A stretch of DNA of 55,397 nucleotides from Candidatus Gaiellasilicea maunaloa. GTDB taxonomy: Bacteria; Actinomycetota; Thermoleophilia; Gaiellales; Gaiellaceae. The notes beneath the pieces were generated by a model. It searched no databases and had not been told where the DNA came from. It saw only the letters and a list, made by a program, of their open reading frames with translations. This document shows, one piece after another, positions 39,461 to 55,397 of the stretch; positions within the stretch are counted from its first letter, which is position 1; every line of letters begins with the position of its first letter. The DNA is taken from NCBI GenBank assembly GCA_024330215.1, contig JANDLU010000015.1, positions 1-55,397 of the forward strand. The letters are read 5' to 3'. Made by a program: the position numbers and the translations under genes.

Positions 39461-40608
39461 CGCGGGTCCAGGGCGGCCGCATGCAGCGGCAGGCCCTCGA
39501 TCCGGGCGAGCGGCAGTGCGATCTCGCCGGCGCGCTCGAGCCCCCCGGCGCTCGCGCGGACGATCTGGACCGGCTTGAGGAAGCTCTCCAGCCCGAGCCC
39601 CCCTGCTCCACGCGCGAGGCCGCCGGTCGGGAGGACATGGGTCGCGCCCGAGGCGTAGTCGCCGACAACCGCCGAGGTACGGACGAAAACGGTCCCCGCG
39701 TTTCGCACGCGCTCGACCAGTGGCTCGGAGTCGGCGAGCCAGAGCTCCAGATGCTCGGGCGCGTACTCGTCCGAACGAGCCAGCGCCTCGTCCACAGAAG
39801 CCATGTCCTCAATCGACACGTTGTCATATCCGCTTACGATCGTACGCACAGCCTCGGACAGCGCCGGCTCGAGGCTGAGCAGGATCGCCTCGCTGTCGGG
39901 CCCGTGCTCGGCCTGGGCGAGCAGGTCGGCGGCGCACTGACCAGCGCTCGCGCTGCCGTCGGCGATCACGACGACCTCGCTGGGCCCGGCCGGGAGGTCG
40001 ATCGCAACACGGCTCGAGACCAGCAGCTTCGCCGCCGTCACGTAGCGGTTGCCCGGCCCGACGATCTTGTCGACGGGCGCGATCGTCTCCGTCCCGTAGG
40101 CGAGGGCGGCAACGGCCTGGGCGCCGCCGACCGCGTACAGCTCGTCGATCCCAAGCTCGTGCGCCACCGCGAGCGTCACCTCGGCCGGGCGCGGCGTGAC
40201 GACGGCGATCCGCTCGACGCCGGCAACCTGTGCGGGCACGGCCGTCATCACGAGGGACGACGGGTATGCGGCCCGGCCGCCGGGCACGTAGACGCCGACC
40301 GACGCAAGCGGGAGCCAGCGGCGCTCGGTCACGATCCCGGGCACCGCCTCGACGAGCGTGTTCGCCGGCCGCTGCGAAAGCGCCACCTCGCGTACTGCCG
40401 CCACGAGCGAGCGGACGGAGTCGAGCACGTCGTCCTCGATCGTCGCGGCGGCGAGCGTCCCGCCCGAGACACGGAGCGGCCGTGCGTCGTCGAATGGCCC
40501 GTCGAGCCGCTCCGTCCAATCGAGCAGCGCCGCGTCGCCGCGGTCGCGAACGTCCGCCACGATCTCGGCGGCGCGCGGCAGCACCTCCTCGAGCCCGGCT
40601 CCCCTCAC
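39457..40608 (-). CDS. hisD: Histidinol dehydrogenase
   Basis: A 383-residue zinc enzyme that oxidises histidinol to histidine in two NAD+-dependent steps. VYVPGGRAAYPSSLVM, GGAQAVAALAYGTETI and IVGPGNRYV are followed by PAGPSEVVVIAD, QAEHGPDSEAILL and YAPEHLEL. It is about 40 residues shorter at the N-terminus than usual; GTG 40608 is set by the GTGA overlap with hisG and no earlier start is plausible. Confidence 0.93.
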   Translation of the reverse strand: MRGAGLEEVLPRAAEIVADVRDRGDAALLDWTERLDGPFDDARPLRVSGGTLAAATIEDDVLDSVRSLVAAVREVALSQRPANTLVEAVPGIVTERRWLPLASVGVYVPGGRAAYPSSLVMTAVPAQVAGVERIAVVTPRPAEVTLAVAHELGIDELYAVGGAQAVAALAYGTETIAPVDKIVGPGNRYVTAAKLLVSSRVAIDLPAGPSEVVVIADGSASAGQCAADLLAQAEHGPDSEAILLSLEPALSEAVRTIVSGYDNVSIEDMASVDEALARSDEYAPEHLELWLADSEPLVERVRNAGTVFVRTSAVVGDYASGATHVLPTGGLARGAGGLGLESFLKPVQIVRASAGGLERAGEIALPLARIEGLPLHAAALDPR

Positions 40609-48876: not shown

Positions 48877-50100
48877 TCAGCCGGCGCGATAGCCCCAGAG
48901 GCCGCCGAAGCTCTGCCACGAGCCCTTCGACCACCGTTGGAGGAGGGCCTGCTCGATCGGGAAGCGCTCGGTCCCGCTCGTCCTGATCGCGATTCCGGGC
49001 AGTAGGAACGGGTTCGAGGCGTCGCTCAGCTTCCGCAGCTGCGCGACGAGCGCCGCGCGCGTCGGATTCTTGCCCGTGGCCTCGAGGACGCGCACGGTCT
49101 CGTGGGCGACCGCCATCCCGTAGACGTGGTAGACGTCCTTCGCGTTCGCGCCCCGCGCGTACTTGGCCAGCACGGAGCGATAGAGCTTCATCGCGGCGTC
49201 GGCGCGCCACTTGGCGTCGGTCGGATCCTTGAGGTAGACGATCGAGACCGAGTTCGCGACGGACTTGTTCGTACCGCCCTCGGAGGCCAGGGTCATGATG
49301 TTCGAGGCGCTCGAAACGGCGTTCACGAGCACGAGCGGCCGCCAGCCGAGACGGTTCGCGAACACGTACCCCTGGATAGCGAACTTGGGCGTCGCGAACA
49401 GCGCCAGCGTGTTGGCGCCGGACGCCTTCAGCTTCGCGATCTGCGACTGGACGTCCGTCGCCGTCACCTCGTAGCCTTCGGCCGCGACGATCTTCACCTT
49501 CGAGCGCGCGATTCCCTGTCGCACTCCGGCCATCAGGTCCTTGCCGTAGTCGTCGTTCTGGAACAGGATCGCGAGCTTCGAGCCCGGCCTCGTGCGCGCC
49601 AGGTAGGTGCCGTAGATCCAGCCCTCCGCCTGATAGCTCGGCTGGAAGCCGATCGTGTACGGGTAGCGCCTGTGGTCGCGCCCGAAGGTGGTGGCGCCGG
49701 AGGCGACGAAGAGCTGCGGCACCCGCAGCTGGTTCAGATAGTCGCGCGTCGCCACGTTGTGCTCGGTGCCGAGCGAGTTGAAGATCGCGAAGACCTTGTC
49801 CTGCTCCACGAGCTGACGCGTCGCCTGGACGGTCTGCACCGGGTTGTAGGCGTCGTCGACGTACTTGTAGGCGATCCTGCGGCCGTTGACGCCACCGCGC
49901 GCGTTCACGTACTTGAAGTAGGCGTCGGCGCCGCGGGCGACCGAGGCGTAGGCGGAAGCGGGGCCCGAGAGCGGCGACGTCCCGCCGAGGAGGATCGTCT
50001 TCGCGGTGATGCCGGGGTCGGCGCCGGACGCGGCGGTCGCGCCGGTGGCGATCGCCCCCGCGAGCGCGACCATCGAGAGAAAAAGCCTGGGACTACGCAT
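48877..50100 (-). CDS. livK: Branched-chain amino acid-type ABC transporter, substrate-binding protein
   Basis: A 407-residue periplasmic-binding-type protein of class I (LivK/HAAT). The N-terminal signal MRSPRLFLSMVALAGAIATGATA ends near ASG; no lipobox Cys is seen. GITAKTILLGGTSPLSGPASAYAS and ADAYFKYVNARGGVNGRRI are family landmarks. It closes a complete livG-livF-livH-livM-livK set. Ligand could be a branched-chain amino acid, amide or other small molecule. Confidence 0.92.
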   Translation of the reverse strand: MRSPRLFLSMVALAGAIATGATAASGADPGITAKTILLGGTSPLSGPASAYASVARGADAYFKYVNARGGVNGRRIAYKYVDDAYNPVQTVQATRQLVEQDKVFAIFNSLGTEHNVATRDYLNQLRVPQLFVASGATTFGRDHRRYPYTIGFQPSYQAEGWIYGTYLARTRPGSKLAILFQNDDYGKDLMAGVRQGIARSKVKIVAAEGYEVTATDVQSQIAKLKASGANTLALFATPKFAIQGYVFANRLGWRPLVLVNAVSSASNIMTLASEGGTNKSVANSVSIVYLKDPTDAKWRADAAMKLYRSVLAKYARGANAKDVYHVYGMAVAHETVRVLEATGKNPTRAALVAQLRKLSDASNPFLLPGIAIRTSGTERFPIEQALLQRWSKGSWQSFGGLWGYRAG

Positions 50101-50128
50101 CGGTGAGAACAGCTCCTTGAGTCGAGGC

Positions 50129-51259
50129 TCAGCGAACGCGATCGTAGCCGCGCGTCGCCAGCGACTGAACCCGGCGGACGAGCCCGCCCGCTCCGCCCGG
50201 GAAGGCGAGCATCACGAGGATCAGGATGACGCCGTAGACGACGGCCGGCGCGCCGGGTGCCTTGAAGTCGGGCACGCCGAGCGGGCCGAACGAGTTTGGC
50301 AGCGGACCGTTCAGCTGCTGGGCCCAGAGCGGCAGGAACTGGATGAAGATGGCACCGATCACGAGTGGCCACAGCGAGCCGAGGCCGCCGACGACCACGC
50401 CGACGAGGAGGAAGATCGAGAGCGTGATCGGGAACGTGTCGGGATTGACGAACGTCGTCGCGATCGCGAGCAGCGAGCCGGCGACGCCGGCGTAGAAGGC
50501 GCTGATCCCGAAGGCGAGAGTCTTGTAGCGCGCAAGGTTGACGCCCGAGGAGGCCGCGGCGAGCTCGCTGTCGCGCACGGCCCGGAACGCCCGGCCCATC
50601 CGCCCGCGCAGGAGCGCCCACGCGACGCCGAACATGACGATCGCGATCGCCCAGCTCAGGTAGTAGAGCCAGTCGTTGAACGTCGTGATCTCCCGCCCCA
50701 GGACGGTCACGCCCTCGGTTTGCTCGAAGGTGATCGGGTCGGTCTTCGGAGTCGCGGTCAGACCTTCGACGCCGAAGAGCTGGATCCCGCCGCCACCGCC
50801 GGTGAACGTCTCGAACTTCTTGATCACGGCCGGCGTCGCCACGGCGATCGCGAAGGTCGCGAGCGCGAGGTAGAGGCCCGTCAGCCGCAGAGCCGGGAAG
50901 CCGAAGAGAAAACCCGCGAGCCCGGCAATCAGGCCCGCGATGGGGATCGTCCAGAGATCCTTCATGTCGTTGGAGAAGACGTGCGAGCCGAGCTTCAGCG
51001 CTGGATCTGAGTTCGAGATCAGGATTGCGGTCGTATAGCCGCCGATCGCCATGAAGGCGCCGTGCCCGAGCGAGATCTGGCCCGTGAAGCCGGTGAGGAC
51101 GTTGAGGCCGAGCAGTGCGATCAGGTAGATCCCGACGTAGGCGAACTGCTGGGCGCGAAAGTCGCTGATCAGGCGCGGCAGGAGCAGGACGGCCGCCGCC
51201 GCGAGCAGGAAGAGAGCCACGCGCACGAGCTCGGCTCGGTTGAGGTACGGCCGGCTCAT
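50129..51259 (-). CDS. livM: Branched-chain amino acid-type ABC transporter permease LivM
   Basis: A 376-residue permease with about nine helices. LNVLTGFTGQISLGHGAFMAIGGY near residues 53-76 is the LivM signature, and MGRAFRAVRDSELAAASSGVN ... YKTLAFGISAFYAGVAGSL marks the ATPase-contacting loop. There is a 60-residue extra segment (GGGGIQLFGVEGLT). ATG 51259 overlaps the livH stop (ATGA). Partner of LivH in the membrane. Confidence 0.93.
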   Translation of the reverse strand: MSRPYLNRAELVRVALFLLAAAAVLLLPRLISDFRAQQFAYVGIYLIALLGLNVLTGFTGQISLGHGAFMAIGGYTTAILISNSDPALKLGSHVFSNDMKDLWTIPIAGLIAGLAGFLFGFPALRLTGLYLALATFAIAVATPAVIKKFETFTGGGGGIQLFGVEGLTATPKTDPITFEQTEGVTVLGREITTFNDWLYYLSWAIAIVMFGVAWALLRGRMGRAFRAVRDSELAAASSGVNLARYKTLAFGISAFYAGVAGSLLAIATTFVNPDTFPITLSIFLLVGVVVGGLGSLWPLVIGAIFIQFLPLWAQQLNGPLPNSFGPLGVPDFKAPGAPAVVYGVILILVMLAFPGGAGGLVRRVQSLATRGYDRVR

Positions 51260-52140
51260 ACGCGCCTCGTGACCGGCTTGCCGAAGAGGCCCGCGGGCCG
51301 CACCAGCAGCACGACGAGGATGATCAGGAGCGCCACCGGCAGGCGCAGGTCGGCGCCGACGAAGTCGACGTAGGCACCGATCAGGTTGAGCCCGACGCCG
51401 AGCAGCAGGCCCCCGGCGACCGCCCCGACCGGCGAGTCGATCCCGCCGAGCACGGCGGCCGCGAACGAGTAGATCAGGATCGCCTGCATCAGGTTCGGGT
51501 CGAGGAAGATGGTCGGGGCGGCCAGCATTCCGGCGACCGCGCCGAGCACGGCGGCGAGACCCCAGCCGATTCCGAGCATCCAGCCGACGCGCACGCCGAC
51601 GAGCCGGCTCGCCTCGGGATTCAGCGCCGACGCGCGCAACGCCAGGCCGATCTTCGTGTAGCGGAAGAACGCCGCGAGGAGGAGCACGAGCACGACGACG
51701 ACGACGATCGTGCCGACGTCCTGCACCGAGATCGCGACGCCGCCGACGTTCCAGGTGTCGTTCGGGAACGGGCTCGGGAAGGCGCGCACCTCTGCCGACC
51801 AGATCCAGCCTGCCGCGCCGTTGAAGACGAGCACGAGTCCGATCGTGATGATCACCGTCGTCAGAATCGGCCCCCGCTCGATCGGTCGGATGATCACGCG
51901 CTGGATCCCGAGGCCGAGCACGAACGCGAAGAGCAGCGTGACGGCGAACGCGGGCCAGTACGAGAAGCCGTGGTTCGCGGTCAGCGTCCAGGCGATGTAG
52001 GTCGTGAACATCGCCATCTCGCCCTGGGCGAAGTTGATCACGCCGGTGGCGCGGTGGATCAGGACGAGGGCGAGCGCGAGCGCCGCGTAGATGGCCCCCG
52101 TGGCGAGGCCGGCGACGATCTGCTGGAAGAAGGCGGCCAA
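51256..52140 (-). CDS. livH: Branched-chain amino acid-type ABC transporter permease LivH
   Basis: A 294-residue permease with about eight helices. FFQQIVAGLATGAIYAALALALVLIHRATGVINFAQGEMAM (in parts) is characteristic, and GLALRASALNPEASRLVGVRV is the coupling loop. The start is TTG 52140 with AGGAAG just upstream on the minus strand; no ATG fits. It lies 9 bp after livF and overlaps livM. Confidence 0.93.
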   Translation of the reverse strand: MAAFFQQIVAGLATGAIYAALALALVLIHRATGVINFAQGEMAMFTTYIAWTLTANHGFSYWPAFAVTLLFAFVLGLGIQRVIIRPIERGPILTTVIITIGLVLVFNGAAGWIWSAEVRAFPSPFPNDTWNVGGVAISVQDVGTIVVVVVLVLLLAAFFRYTKIGLALRASALNPEASRLVGVRVGWMLGIGWGLAAVLGAVAGMLAAPTIFLDPNLMQAILIYSFAAAVLGGIDSPVGAVAGGLLLGVGLNLIGAYVDFVGADLRLPVALLIILVVLLVRPAGLFGKPVTRRV

Positions 52141-52149
52141 CGTTCTTCC

Positions 52150-52854
52150 TCAGTAGCCGAGGTAGCTCTTGCGGACGGATTCGTCGCGGGCGAGCTCCTC
52201 GCTCGTCCCCGACACGGCCACCTTGCCGACCTCGAGCACGTAGGCGCGGGCGGCGACCTCGAGCGCGATCGCCGCGTTCTGCTCGACGACGAGCACGGTC
52301 AGCCCGTCCTCCTCGTTCAGCTCACGCACGATCCGGAAGATCTCACGTGTGACGAGCGGCGCGAGCCCGAGGGAGGGCTCGTCGAGGAGGAGCAGCTTCG
52401 GTCGGCTCATCAAGGCCCGTGCGAGCGCGAGCATCTGCTGCTCGCCGCCCGAGAGGGTGCCGGCGTGCTGGTCGCCGCGCTCCCCGAGCCACGGAAAGTA
52501 GCCGCTCATCCGCTCGACGTCCGCGTCGAGCGAGCCGCGACGCGTGTAGCCGCCGAGCCGCAGGTTCTCGTCGACCGAGAGCTCGGCGAAGGTGCCGCGG
52601 CCCTCCGGCACGTGCGCGACACCGAGCTTCGCGACTGCTTCCGGACCGTGGCGGCCGAGCCGCTTGCCCGCGAGCGAGATCTCGCCGGTCCGCCGGACGG
52701 TGCCCGAGATCGCGCGAAGCGTCGTCGTCTTGCCCGCGCCGTTCGCGCCGAGCACCGCCACGATCTGCCCCTCGTCGACGGCGAGCGAGACCCCGTGGAG
52801 AGCGCGCACCTGGCCGTAGCGGGCCTCGACGTCCTGCAGCTCAAGCAGCGCCAT
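52150..52854 (-). CDS. livF: ABC transporter ATP-binding protein LivF
   Basis: A 234-residue ATPase. Walker A GANGAGKTT, signature LSGGEQQMLALARALM, Walker B LLLLDEPSLGLAP, and the switch His region VVEQN are visible. ATG 52854 (MALLELQDVEARYG) is the normal family start and overlaps livG by 14 nt. It forms the ATPase heterodimer with LivG. Confidence 0.95.
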   Translation of the reverse strand: MALLELQDVEARYGQVRALHGVSLAVDEGQIVAVLGANGAGKTTTLRAISGTVRRTGEISLAGKRLGRHGPEAVAKLGVAHVPEGRGTFAELSVDENLRLGGYTRRGSLDADVERMSGYFPWLGERGDQHAGTLSGGEQQMLALARALMSRPKLLLLDEPSLGLAPLVTREIFRIVRELNEEDGLTVLVVEQNAAIALEVAARAYVLEVGKVAVSGTSEELARDESVRKSYLGY

Positions 52855-53626
52855 CGGGATCCCTGGCCACGGGCTCGCCGGCGTGCGCGGATCCCGCACC
52901 GTTGCCGCCGGCATGGGTGTCGTCCGTGCCGAGATAGGCCTCGATCACGGCCGGGTTCGCGCGCACCTCGGCGGGCGTGCCGCCGGCGATCTGGCGGCCG
53001 AAGTTGAGCACGTGGACGTGATCCGAGATGCCCATCACGAGGTTCATGTGATGCTCGACGAGCAGCACGGTCAGCTTCCGGTCGTCGCGGATCTGGCGGA
53101 TGAAGCGGCCGAGCTCCGCAACCTCCTCGTGGTTCAGCCCGCCGGCGGGCTCGTCGAGGAGCAGGAGCGTCGGCTGCGCGACGAGCGCACGCGCGAGCTC
53201 GACGCGCTTCAGCGTCCCGAAAGGGAGGCCGGCGACGGCACGGCGGGCGATCGGCGCGAGCCCGACGTAGTCGAGCGCCTCGAGCGCCTGCTGCTCCGAG
53301 TCGCGCCCGCGCGTGTGCGCGCCCACGAGCACGTTCTCGAGTGCGGACATCGTCCTGAAGAGCTCCACGTTCTGGAAGGTGCGCGCGATCCCGCGGCGGA
53401 CGATCCCATGAACCGGTGCTTTCAGGAGGTTCTCGCCGGCGAACTCGACCTCGCCCTCGTTCGGGGTGTAGAGGCGGGTGATCACGTTGAAGGCCGTCGT
53501 CTTGCCGGCACCGTTCGGACCGATCAGCCCCACGATCTGGCCCTCACCCACATCGAACGAGACACCGTCGAGGGCGACGATGCCGCCGAAGCGACGGGTG
53601 ACGTTCCGCAGCGAGAGGAGGGCCAT
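52841..53626 (-). CDS. livG: ABC transporter ATP-binding protein LivG
   Basis: A 261-residue ATPase with Walker A GPNGAGKTTAFN, the Q-loop at ARTFQNVELF, a signature-like region LPFGTLKRVELARAL (LSG replaced by LPF), and Walker B LLLLDEPAGGLN. ATG 53626 (MALLSLRNVTRRFGG) fits the family; upstream sequence is intergenic. It is the first gene of the liv operon. The C-terminal 25 residues are low complexity. Confidence 0.94.
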   Translation of the reverse strand: MALLSLRNVTRRFGGIVALDGVSFDVGEGQIVGLIGPNGAGKTTAFNVITRLYTPNEGEVEFAGENLLKAPVHGIVRRGIARTFQNVELFRTMSALENVLVGAHTRGRDSEQQALEALDYVGLAPIARRAVAGLPFGTLKRVELARALVAQPTLLLLDEPAGGLNHEEVAELGRFIRQIRDDRKLTVLLVEHHMNLVMGISDHVHVLNFGRQIAGGTPAEVRANPAVIEAYLGTDDTHAGGNGAGSAHAGEPVARDPDGAA

Positions 53627-53710
53627 GCGTCGGCGTACCTTAGAGCCTTCAACACCGTGAGGCCTCGTCGACGGGACGCGATGGATGGTGCGAGGCAAGG
53701 ACGCAGGGAA

Positions 53711-53735
53711 CGTCGATATGCAGGTCATATCGACG
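53711..53735. promoter_or_regulatory. Perfect 10-bp inverted repeat in the livG-desaturase divergent gap
   Basis: CGTCGATATG (53711-53720) and CATATCGACG (53726-53735) pair perfectly around CAGGT. It lies 76 bp from livG's start and 122 bp from the desaturase start, a good place for a transcription factor site for either operon. The centre is A+T-rich. No regulator gene is adjacent. Confidence 0.6.
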
Positions 53736-53856
53736 CGACTGAGGACGCGGACTCGCGCTGCGGAGCGCGTTCCGCCGGCACAGAGCTTCGTGGGTTGGAG
53801 GCTCTTGTGAGCGCGCCGCGACAGAGGCAACGAAGGAGCGCTACTCTCCTCCGCCA

Positions 53857-54783
53857 GTGACCGCCATCATCACCGAGATCCCGGCCGAGTTGCACATGAC
53901 CCGGGGACAGAAGATCACTAACCTCGTCGGCGTCACGCTCCCGTTCGTCGGCTTCGTCGCCTCGATCTTCCTCTTCTGGGGCAGCTACGTGACCTGGCGC
54001 GACCTGATCATCTTCGCCGTCGGCTACGCGTTGACGACGCTCGGGATCTCGATCGGCTTCCACCGGCTCTTCACGCACCGCTCGTACGAGACGTACCGGG
54101 CGATCCGCTACGGGCTCGCCGTCCTCGGCTCGATGGCGGTGCAGGGACCGGTGATCCGCTGGGTCTCCGACCACCGCAAGCACCACAACTTCGCCGACCG
54201 GGAGGGCGATCCGCACTCGCCGCACGCGGGCTTCGCGCCCGGCTTGCGTGGGAAGCTCGCAGGGCTCTGGCACGCGCACGTCGGCTGGCTCTTTCGCAAC
54301 GTCGGCCGCGCCGAGTGGACGAAGTACGCAAAGGATCTGCTCGCGGACCGGGGCATGGTCTTCATCTCGCGCTGGTTCCCGGCGTGGGTTGCGGCCTCGC
54401 TCGTGCTCCCGTTCGTAGCCGGCTGGATCTGGGGCGGCACGCTCGACGCCGGTCTGCAGGCCATGTTCTGGGGCGGTCTGATCCGGATCTTCCTGCTCCA
54501 CCACATCACGTGGTCGGTCAACTCGGTCTGCCACTTCGTCGGGTCGCGGCGCTTTCAGGTCAAGGACGAGTCGCGCAACGTCTGGTGGCTCTCGTGGATC
54601 TCGTTCGGCGAGTCGTGGCACCACAACCATCACGCCTTCCCATCGTCGGCGTTCCACGGCCTCAAGCCGTGGGAGCTCGACATCGGCGGGCTCGTGATCC
54701 GGCTGCTGCGTCGCCTCGGTCTCGTCTGGAAGGTGAACACGCCGAGCGTCGACATGCAGCGCCGCCGCCAGCTCGCCGGATGA
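53857..54783 (+). CDS. Acyl-CoA desaturase (membrane fatty acid desaturase)
   Basis: A 308-residue di-iron desaturase of the stearoyl-CoA delta-9 type. Three His boxes are present: HRLFTH (69-74), HRKHH (106-110) and HHNHH in GESWHHNHHAFPSSAFHG. Four hydrophobic helices (about 22-42, 48-64, 165-185, 195-215) place it in the membrane. The start is GTG 53857; an AAGGAG lies about 25 nt upstream, too far for a normal ribosome binding site. Its stop overlaps the selenoprotein ATG (ATGA), so the two proteins are produced together. Confidence 0.93.
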   Translation: MTAIITEIPAELHMTRGQKITNLVGVTLPFVGFVASIFLFWGSYVTWRDLIIFAVGYALTTLGISIGFHRLFTHRSYETYRAIRYGLAVLGSMAVQGPVIRWVSDHRKHHNFADREGDPHSPHAGFAPGLRGKLAGLWHAHVGWLFRNVGRAEWTKYAKDLLADRGMVFISRWFPAWVAASLVLPFVAGWIWGGTLDAGLQAMFWGGLIRIFLLHHITWSVNSVCHFVGSRRFQVKDESRNVWWLSWISFGESWHHNHHAFPSSAFHGLKPWELDIGGLVIRLLRRLGLVWKVNTPSVDMQRRRQLAG

Positions 54784-55397
54784 GTCGACCCGAGACGCCG
54801 GTCGACTCGCCGCTCCAGCTCGAGGGCGTGATGGAGTGCTCCCGCTACCGCAGCCTGATGACGCCCGAGCTCGGGCCTGGCGACCCCGCCTTCCCCTTCG
54901 ACCTGCCGCGGCTCGATCCCGAATCGCACCGCCCGAGCGCCGAGCGCATCCGGCTCGCCGAGCTCGCAGGCAGGCCTGTCGCGCTCGTCTTCGGCTCGTA
55001 CACCTGACCTCCGTTCCGCCGTCAGTTGGGCGAGCTGGAGGAGCTGCACGAACGACACGGGAGCGAGGTCGCGTTCTTCATCGTCTACATCCGCGAGGCG
55101 CATCCCGAGGACGGCTGGGTGCTCGCCGACAACCGCCGTGACAACATCGCGCTCGCGGATCCGACCTCGCTCGAGGAGCGGGCGGCCGCCGCCGAGGCGT
55201 GCGTCGTGCGCCTGCGCACGCGGATTCCGGTGCTGCTCGACGACGTCGACGACGCGGTCGCTCTCGCCTACGGCGGCTGGCCCGACCGGCTCTACCTGAT
55301 CGACCGAGACGGCCGAATCGCCTTCCAGGGCGGGCGCGGGCCGGACGGCTTCGAACCCGCGGAGCTGGCGCGGGCGATCGAGGCCGAGCTCGGCTAG
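54780..55397 (+). CDS. Iodothyronine deiodinase-like selenoprotein (TGA at 55005 = Sec76)
   Basis: ATG 54780 sits in the desaturase stop. The frame reads to ALVFGSYT, meets TGA at 55005-55007, and continues PPFRRQLGELEELHERHGSE to TAG at 55395. Vertebrate deiodinases read LNFGSCTUPSF at this point and then YIxEAHxxDGW; here VYIREAHPEDGW follows, with YGGWPDRLYLIDRDGRI later. Together these indicate a 205-residue thioredoxin-fold selenoprotein with Sec76. A stable hairpin begins one base after the TGA. Bacterial DI-like selenoproteins have been noted before; substrate is unknown. Coupling to a desaturase suggests lipid or peroxide redox chemistry (inference). Confidence 0.9.
55008..55041 (+). 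promoter_or_regulatory. SECIS-like hairpin directly after the deiodinase-like TGA
   Basis: CCTCC (55008-55012) pairs with GGAGG (55037-55041). CGCC (55017-55020) pairs with GGCG (55029-55032). A GTTC/AGCT internal loop separates the stems. The apical loop GTCAGTTG begins with G-U, as bacterial SECIS elements require, and lies 14 nt after the TGA. It codes for protein as well, as all bacterial SECIS do. Confidence 0.7.

Follow-up and report, generated by a model that had tools for sequence, protein, structure and literature searches.

The locus described here raises the question of whether an in-frame TGA close to the end of an actinobacterial contig terminates a gene or conceals a selenoprotein of the iodothyronine deiodinase family and, if the latter, what such a protein might do. 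The animal relatives activate and inactivate thyroid hormone, and related bacterial proteins were described as early as 2005 (PMC1088965). The window (the whole stretch of DNA analysed, 55,397 nt) is one entire contig (C47) of a 3.85-Mb genome assembled in 200 contigs, and its last base is the end of the gene's stop codon. The original prediction of a single frame from ATG to TAG, interrupted by one TGA, is borne out both by translation and by homologue conservation: in 205 codons (TAG at 55395–55397), the sole internal stop is codon 76 (Table 1). Standard gene callers would end the gene at residue 75 or begin it past the UGA, and the enzyme would stay hidden. The open frame of roughly 130 codons after the TGA is no proof by itself, because the DNA is GC-rich and long frames are common (198 open reading frames (ORFs) of at least 100 amino acids in the window); the argument for selenocysteine (Sec) therefore rests on conservation. 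Elsewhere in the window, a borderline tRNA match lies at the contig start (184–251, plus strand; 29.3 bits against a cut-off of 29).

Table 1 Features of the selenoprotein locus, in positions of the window
Feature	Position	Strand	Basis
Fatty-acid desaturase gene, upstream, ATGA overlap with the selenoprotein start	53857..54783	+	PF00487 4.6e-20
Predicted deiodinase-family selenoprotein gene, 205 residues, ATG to TAG	54780..55397	+	TGA-as-Sec translation; Pfam T4_deiodinase 1.5e-30; AlphaFold2 pLDDT 96.3; top folds DIO2, DIO3
UGA codon, predicted Sec76	55005..55007	+	TGA or Cys at the site in the family; selA, selB, selC and selD in the genome
SECIS-like hairpin directly 3′ of the UGA	55008..55041	+	predicted loop GUCAGUUG at 55021–55028; family loop AGUUG at 55024–55028
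Codons Tyr103–Trp113 (YIREAHPEDGW), deiodinase proton-relay and substrate-pocket segment	55086..55118	+	Tyr103, Glu106, His108 and Trp113 invariant, n = 32
Cys141 codon, candidate resolving cysteine	55200..55202	+	Cys in 27/32 bacterial sequences; role inferred

Close homologues, at 46–61% identity, run on in frame past a TGA at the same codon. After sequences identical across the compared stretch were dropped, 35 distinct homologues crossing codon 76 (the window not counted) carried TGA in 23 cases and Cys in 12, so that, as had been proposed for a genuine Sec site, every family member crossing this codon has one or the other; a single aligned Arg belongs to a distant thioredoxin-like match (L079) outside the family. 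The homologues nearer to the window protein, which belong to Actinomycetota, Chloroflexota, Pseudomonadota, Myxococcota, Armatimonadota, Planctomycetota and Latescibacterota, have TGA; others have TGC or TGT. The region beyond the TGA is under purifying selection, with dN/dS values of 0.2–0.55 among close relatives.

The genome also encodes the machinery for Sec insertion. A genome search located selA and selB next to each other on contig C123 and selD on C58. The tRNA-Sec gene runs off the end of C123, and its last 55 nt are shared exactly with C162; joining it across the two contigs yields a 93-nt tRNA-SeC(tca) whose 8-bp acceptor stem is perfect and whose anticodon is UCA. All four genes named in the original prediction (selA, selB, selC and selD) are thus present, the tRNA by way of this join. 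Of 20 genomes carrying the TGA form, 17 yielded selA, as did one of nine carrying the Cys form (Fisher p 3e-4, a guide only, as related genomes are not independent samples); two of the three TGA-form genomes in which selA was not found are 78–80% complete, and the third is 1.9 Mb in size.

Four lines of evidence, namely the TGA/Cys alternation at the site, the Sec genes, the co-occurrence with selA and the dN/dS values after the TGA, agree with one another and indicate that the in-gene TGA is almost certainly read as selenocysteine. That it is instead a genuine stop or a sequencing error, in a pseudogene or a misread Cys gene, is extremely improbable: a lone in-frame stop in a draft assembly may be an error, and the same genome holds another, clearly degraded deiodinase-like remnant on C149, but the same TGA appears independently in 23 distinct homologues from several phyla, purifying selection continues downstream of it and all the Sec genes are present.

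Several other sequences in this genome touch on the same subject. The C149 remnant (C149:19156–19329, minus strand, within L085, C149:17500–20727) is 56% identical to residues 138–195 of the window protein, and its frames are broken around the match. A second protein with an in-frame TGA is encoded on C102 (approximately 39568–40305, plus strand; L086:1369–2106); it matches T4_deiodinase at 1.2e-14, carries a UPFC (UxxC) motif and is 33% identical to the window protein, and many genomes from the same family and class encode relatives of it whose TGA is at the corresponding position. On C123, a 43-nt near-copy (98%) of the 5′ half of tRNA-Sec lies at 1475–1517, 1.4 kb from the gene itself (C123:1–85, minus strand); on C162 (263–350), the shared 3′ half runs into a different 5′ sequence that is not the tRNA 5′ half (L087, L088). 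The arrangement of split gene and 5′-half copy resembles an attachment site or a variation between strains; insertion of an integrative element into tRNA-Sec was considered as the cause and set aside, the few flanking ORFs scanned containing no integrase. A second SelB-like match, on C1 (118937–120088, minus strand; L010), scores 202 bits, under the cut-off, contains one in-frame TAG and is probably EF-Tu or a relative.

The original prediction also pointed to a hairpin with a GU-starting loop immediately after the TGA. A hairpin does lie directly after it, with G and U in its loop, but at −18.5 kcal/mol it is no better than shuffled sequences (z −1.14; 28 of 200 shuffles as good) and its energy alone is not significant; as it exceeds neither shuffles nor synonymous controls, we rejected it as stand-alone proof, and it is the family comparison that supports a SECIS role. 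Inspection shows that the segment could alternatively fold with the family loop AGUUG above a stem of four pairs. Many TGA forms have a hairpin inside the 45 nt past the TGA; AGUU, AGUUG and GGUC are examples of its loop. When set against synonymous-codon controls, the best hairpin is the stronger across 24 TGA forms (Wilcoxon 4e-6; Fisher 9e-5), with 15 of the 24 not reaching p < 0.1 singly, and in 12 Cys forms the best hairpin is not above such controls. A covariation score based on pair counts in 19 TGA forms was reached by none of 500 shuffles, a comparison that is inflated by sequence relatedness; slid registers also score lower. Enrichment and covariation in the TGA forms thus give the putative SECIS-like hairpin clear support at the level of the family. 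An Rfam scan for a SECIS family returned nothing relevant near the gene.

The read-through protein belongs to the deiodinase family by several measures. It matches Pfam T4_deiodinase (PF00837) with 106.7 bits against a gathering cut-off of 27, and aligns with mouse DIO3 at 2.3e-26. The NCBIfam model NF038285 (deiodinase_rel, 347 positions) is matched at 3.3e-55 over its C-terminal half (193–340); its first roughly 190 positions are absent here, and the score, 187.9 of 250 bits, is below the curated cut-off. An AlphaFold2 model built on an alignment of 32 family members has the confidence given in Table 1 (a mean over residues), and its comparison with solved structures places DIO2 (Z 20.7) and DIO3 (Z 20.2) as the top two, which corresponds to the deiodinase variant of the thioredoxin fold; the next chain is at 16.8, and ResA, AhpE and other thioredoxin-fold structures are at this value and below. 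With animal DIO1–3 (PDB 4tr3, 9h48) the protein has in common the fold (Z ~20, 30–35% identity across 165–174 residues), the GS-x-TUPPF motif, the EAHP-x-DGW segment and most proton-relay residues, but in contrast to them it has no N-terminal membrane segment in its sequence. The deiodinase resemblance first noticed in FGSYT-U-PPF and YIREAHPEDGW is therefore backed by the Pfam match, the DIO3 alignment and the DIO2/DIO3 fold match. The predicted product is a single-domain iodothyronine-deiodinase-family protein with no obvious membrane anchor, and we are highly confident of the gene's identity as a Sec-decoded member of this family, a statement that leaves its substrate aside. A tree was tried for the priority of bacterial over animal forms or the reverse, and, as it held two animal sequences only and was rooted at the midpoint, no claim is made from it.

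Peroxiredoxins and ResA-type proteins have the superfamily fold in common with the window protein (Z up to 16.8; AhpC-TSA match 6e-7); it differs from them in having neither CxxC nor PxxxTxxC and in carrying the deiodinase EAHPEDGW segment instead. The peroxiredoxin motif around the peroxidatic residue is PxxxT/SxxC; the window protein has Leu69 where Pro is expected, and Ser73 at the T/S position.

Residue equivalences taken from the alignment of the window protein with mouse DIO3 show which parts of the deiodinase active site are kept. Tyr103, Glu106, His108 and Trp113 correspond to DIO3 Tyr197, Glu200, His202 and Trp207 and are invariant in 32 bacterial sequences, as is the equivalent of DIO3 Arg225; Ser73 and Thr75 (DIO3 Ser167 and Thr169) are nearly invariant in the same set. 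For DIO2 and DIO3 a proton relay has been proposed, made up of these Ser, Thr, Tyr, Glu and His residues and of His219 (PMC11592359). The His219 position is Pro128 in the window protein and Pro in 30 of 32 homologues. The animal enzymes further have a proximal recycling cysteine (DIO1 Cys124 or DIO3 Cys168, absent in DIO2), which in DIO1 forms a selenenyl-sulfide with Sec, and a distal one (DIO3 Cys239) (PMC9141512). At the proximal site the window protein has Tyr74 and the bacterial sequences Tyr, Phe or Ile, and at the distal site none of the 32 has Cys. Because His219 is replaced by Pro and both recycling cysteines are missing, DIO chemistry is not simply transferable to the bacterial proteins. 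Cys141, kept in 27 of the 32, may be a resolving residue that replaces the DIO recycling cysteines. Arg186 of the window protein corresponds to DIO3 Arg275, a proposed substrate clamp; it is present in only 6 of 32 homologues, so that the clamp is no family constraint.

On the basis of the conserved residues, the enzyme is most likely a selenolate-based two-electron reductase. In the mechanism that we propose, the UGA would be decoded by SelB and Sec-tRNA with the aid of the hairpin just downstream; the Sec76 selenolate would then attack an electrophile, the conserved Ser/Thr-Tyr-Glu-His network donating protons, to give an Se-OH or Se-X intermediate; the oxidized selenium would be reduced via Cys141, or else a small thiol or thioredoxin would act on it directly. 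For the substrate, a peroxide or similar oxidant is our first guess, about as likely as not; a compound of some other kind is a weaker guess, and a halogenated aromatic a weaker one still.

A more specific reading, which we consider unlikely although it fares best among the alternatives, is that the protein is Sec-decoded and acts as a reductive dehalogenase on iodinated or brominated aromatics, with a chemistry resembling that of the animal deiodinases. In its favour, no solved structures come closer than those of DIO2 and DIO3, the relay and pocket positions are kept (Ser73, Thr75, Tyr103, Glu106, His108 and Trp113), and the window protein has Arg at the clamp position; against this, that Arg is confined to the 6 homologues noted above, the His219 equivalent is mostly Pro, neither recycling Cys is conserved and the Pfam tally of flanking ORFs reveals no dehalogenation genes recurring nearby. 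It is likewise doubtful that the bacterial proteins in general are true Sec-dependent dehalogenases acting on such aromatics in soil and sea and recycled via Cys141. If the dehalogenase reading were true, it would provide a bacterial counterpart of thyroid-hormone deiodination.

Less probable again is a joint role with the upstream desaturase, for example in reducing lipid peroxides that arise around unsaturated fatty acids. The ATGA overlap in the original prediction is real: the selenoprotein start lies inside the desaturase stop codon on the same strand (54780–54783), which suggests translational coupling. The coupling is not conserved, however, and was in no relative found: tblastn at E 1e-5 of homologue loci, with flanks of about 1.5–4 kb, detected a desaturase in the window only, and an operon function with the desaturase was rejected on this result. 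When 71 ORFs flanking the gene at 11 loci, some of these ORFs probably spurious, were tallied by Pfam family, no neighbour family occurred in more than four loci, ABC transporters ranking first. Because no relative shows the desaturase and no recurrent neighbour is telling, the gene pair is probably peculiar to this genome and offers no strong functional clue. Plasmid records gave no match. Upstream of the desaturase gene and divergent from it, the window carries a complete ABC transporter set of the branched-chain amino-acid type (48877–53830, minus strand), with a substrate-binding protein, two permeases and two ATPases.

A Sec-using variant of the ResA/TlpA thiol-disulfide oxidoreductases is, in our view, a very unlikely identity for the protein. 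The superfamily fold is common to both (Z up to 16.8) and there are weak Redoxin and Thioredoxin_8 matches, but its U-P-P-F motif contains neither a CxxC nor a UxxC pair, and the match to deiodinases is stronger by far.

The selenolate-based reductase favoured here joins a known bacterial group. The original prediction considered a bacterial deiodinase fold coupled to an acyl-CoA desaturase unusual; bacterial deiodinase-like selenoproteins had been reported in 2005, when the Sargasso Sea selenoproteome described Sec- and Cys-containing deiodinase-like proteins and a redox role was suggested for them, as bacteria would not be expected to contain thyroid hormones (PMC1088965). The 2008 GOS survey (PMC2398784) recovered such proteins again, and a review of 2026 counts the family with those whose functions remain largely unknown. 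The Sargasso Sea and GOS proteins (PMC1088965, PMC2398784) have PF00837 and a Sec/Cys catalytic site in common with the window protein, and their bacterial SECIS has a putative counterpart here, but they come from marine reads and it comes from an actinobacterial genome. The bacterial family motif is given as UxxC in a 2022 review, whereas the window protein shares UPPF with the animal enzymes. The window protein thus adds an actinobacterial member to a family already known: a well-supported Sec protein with a conserved cysteine other than those that the animal enzymes use. Short and probably soluble, proteins of this kind would be good objects for asking whether dehalogenation or some other reduction was the original chemistry of the deiodinase family.
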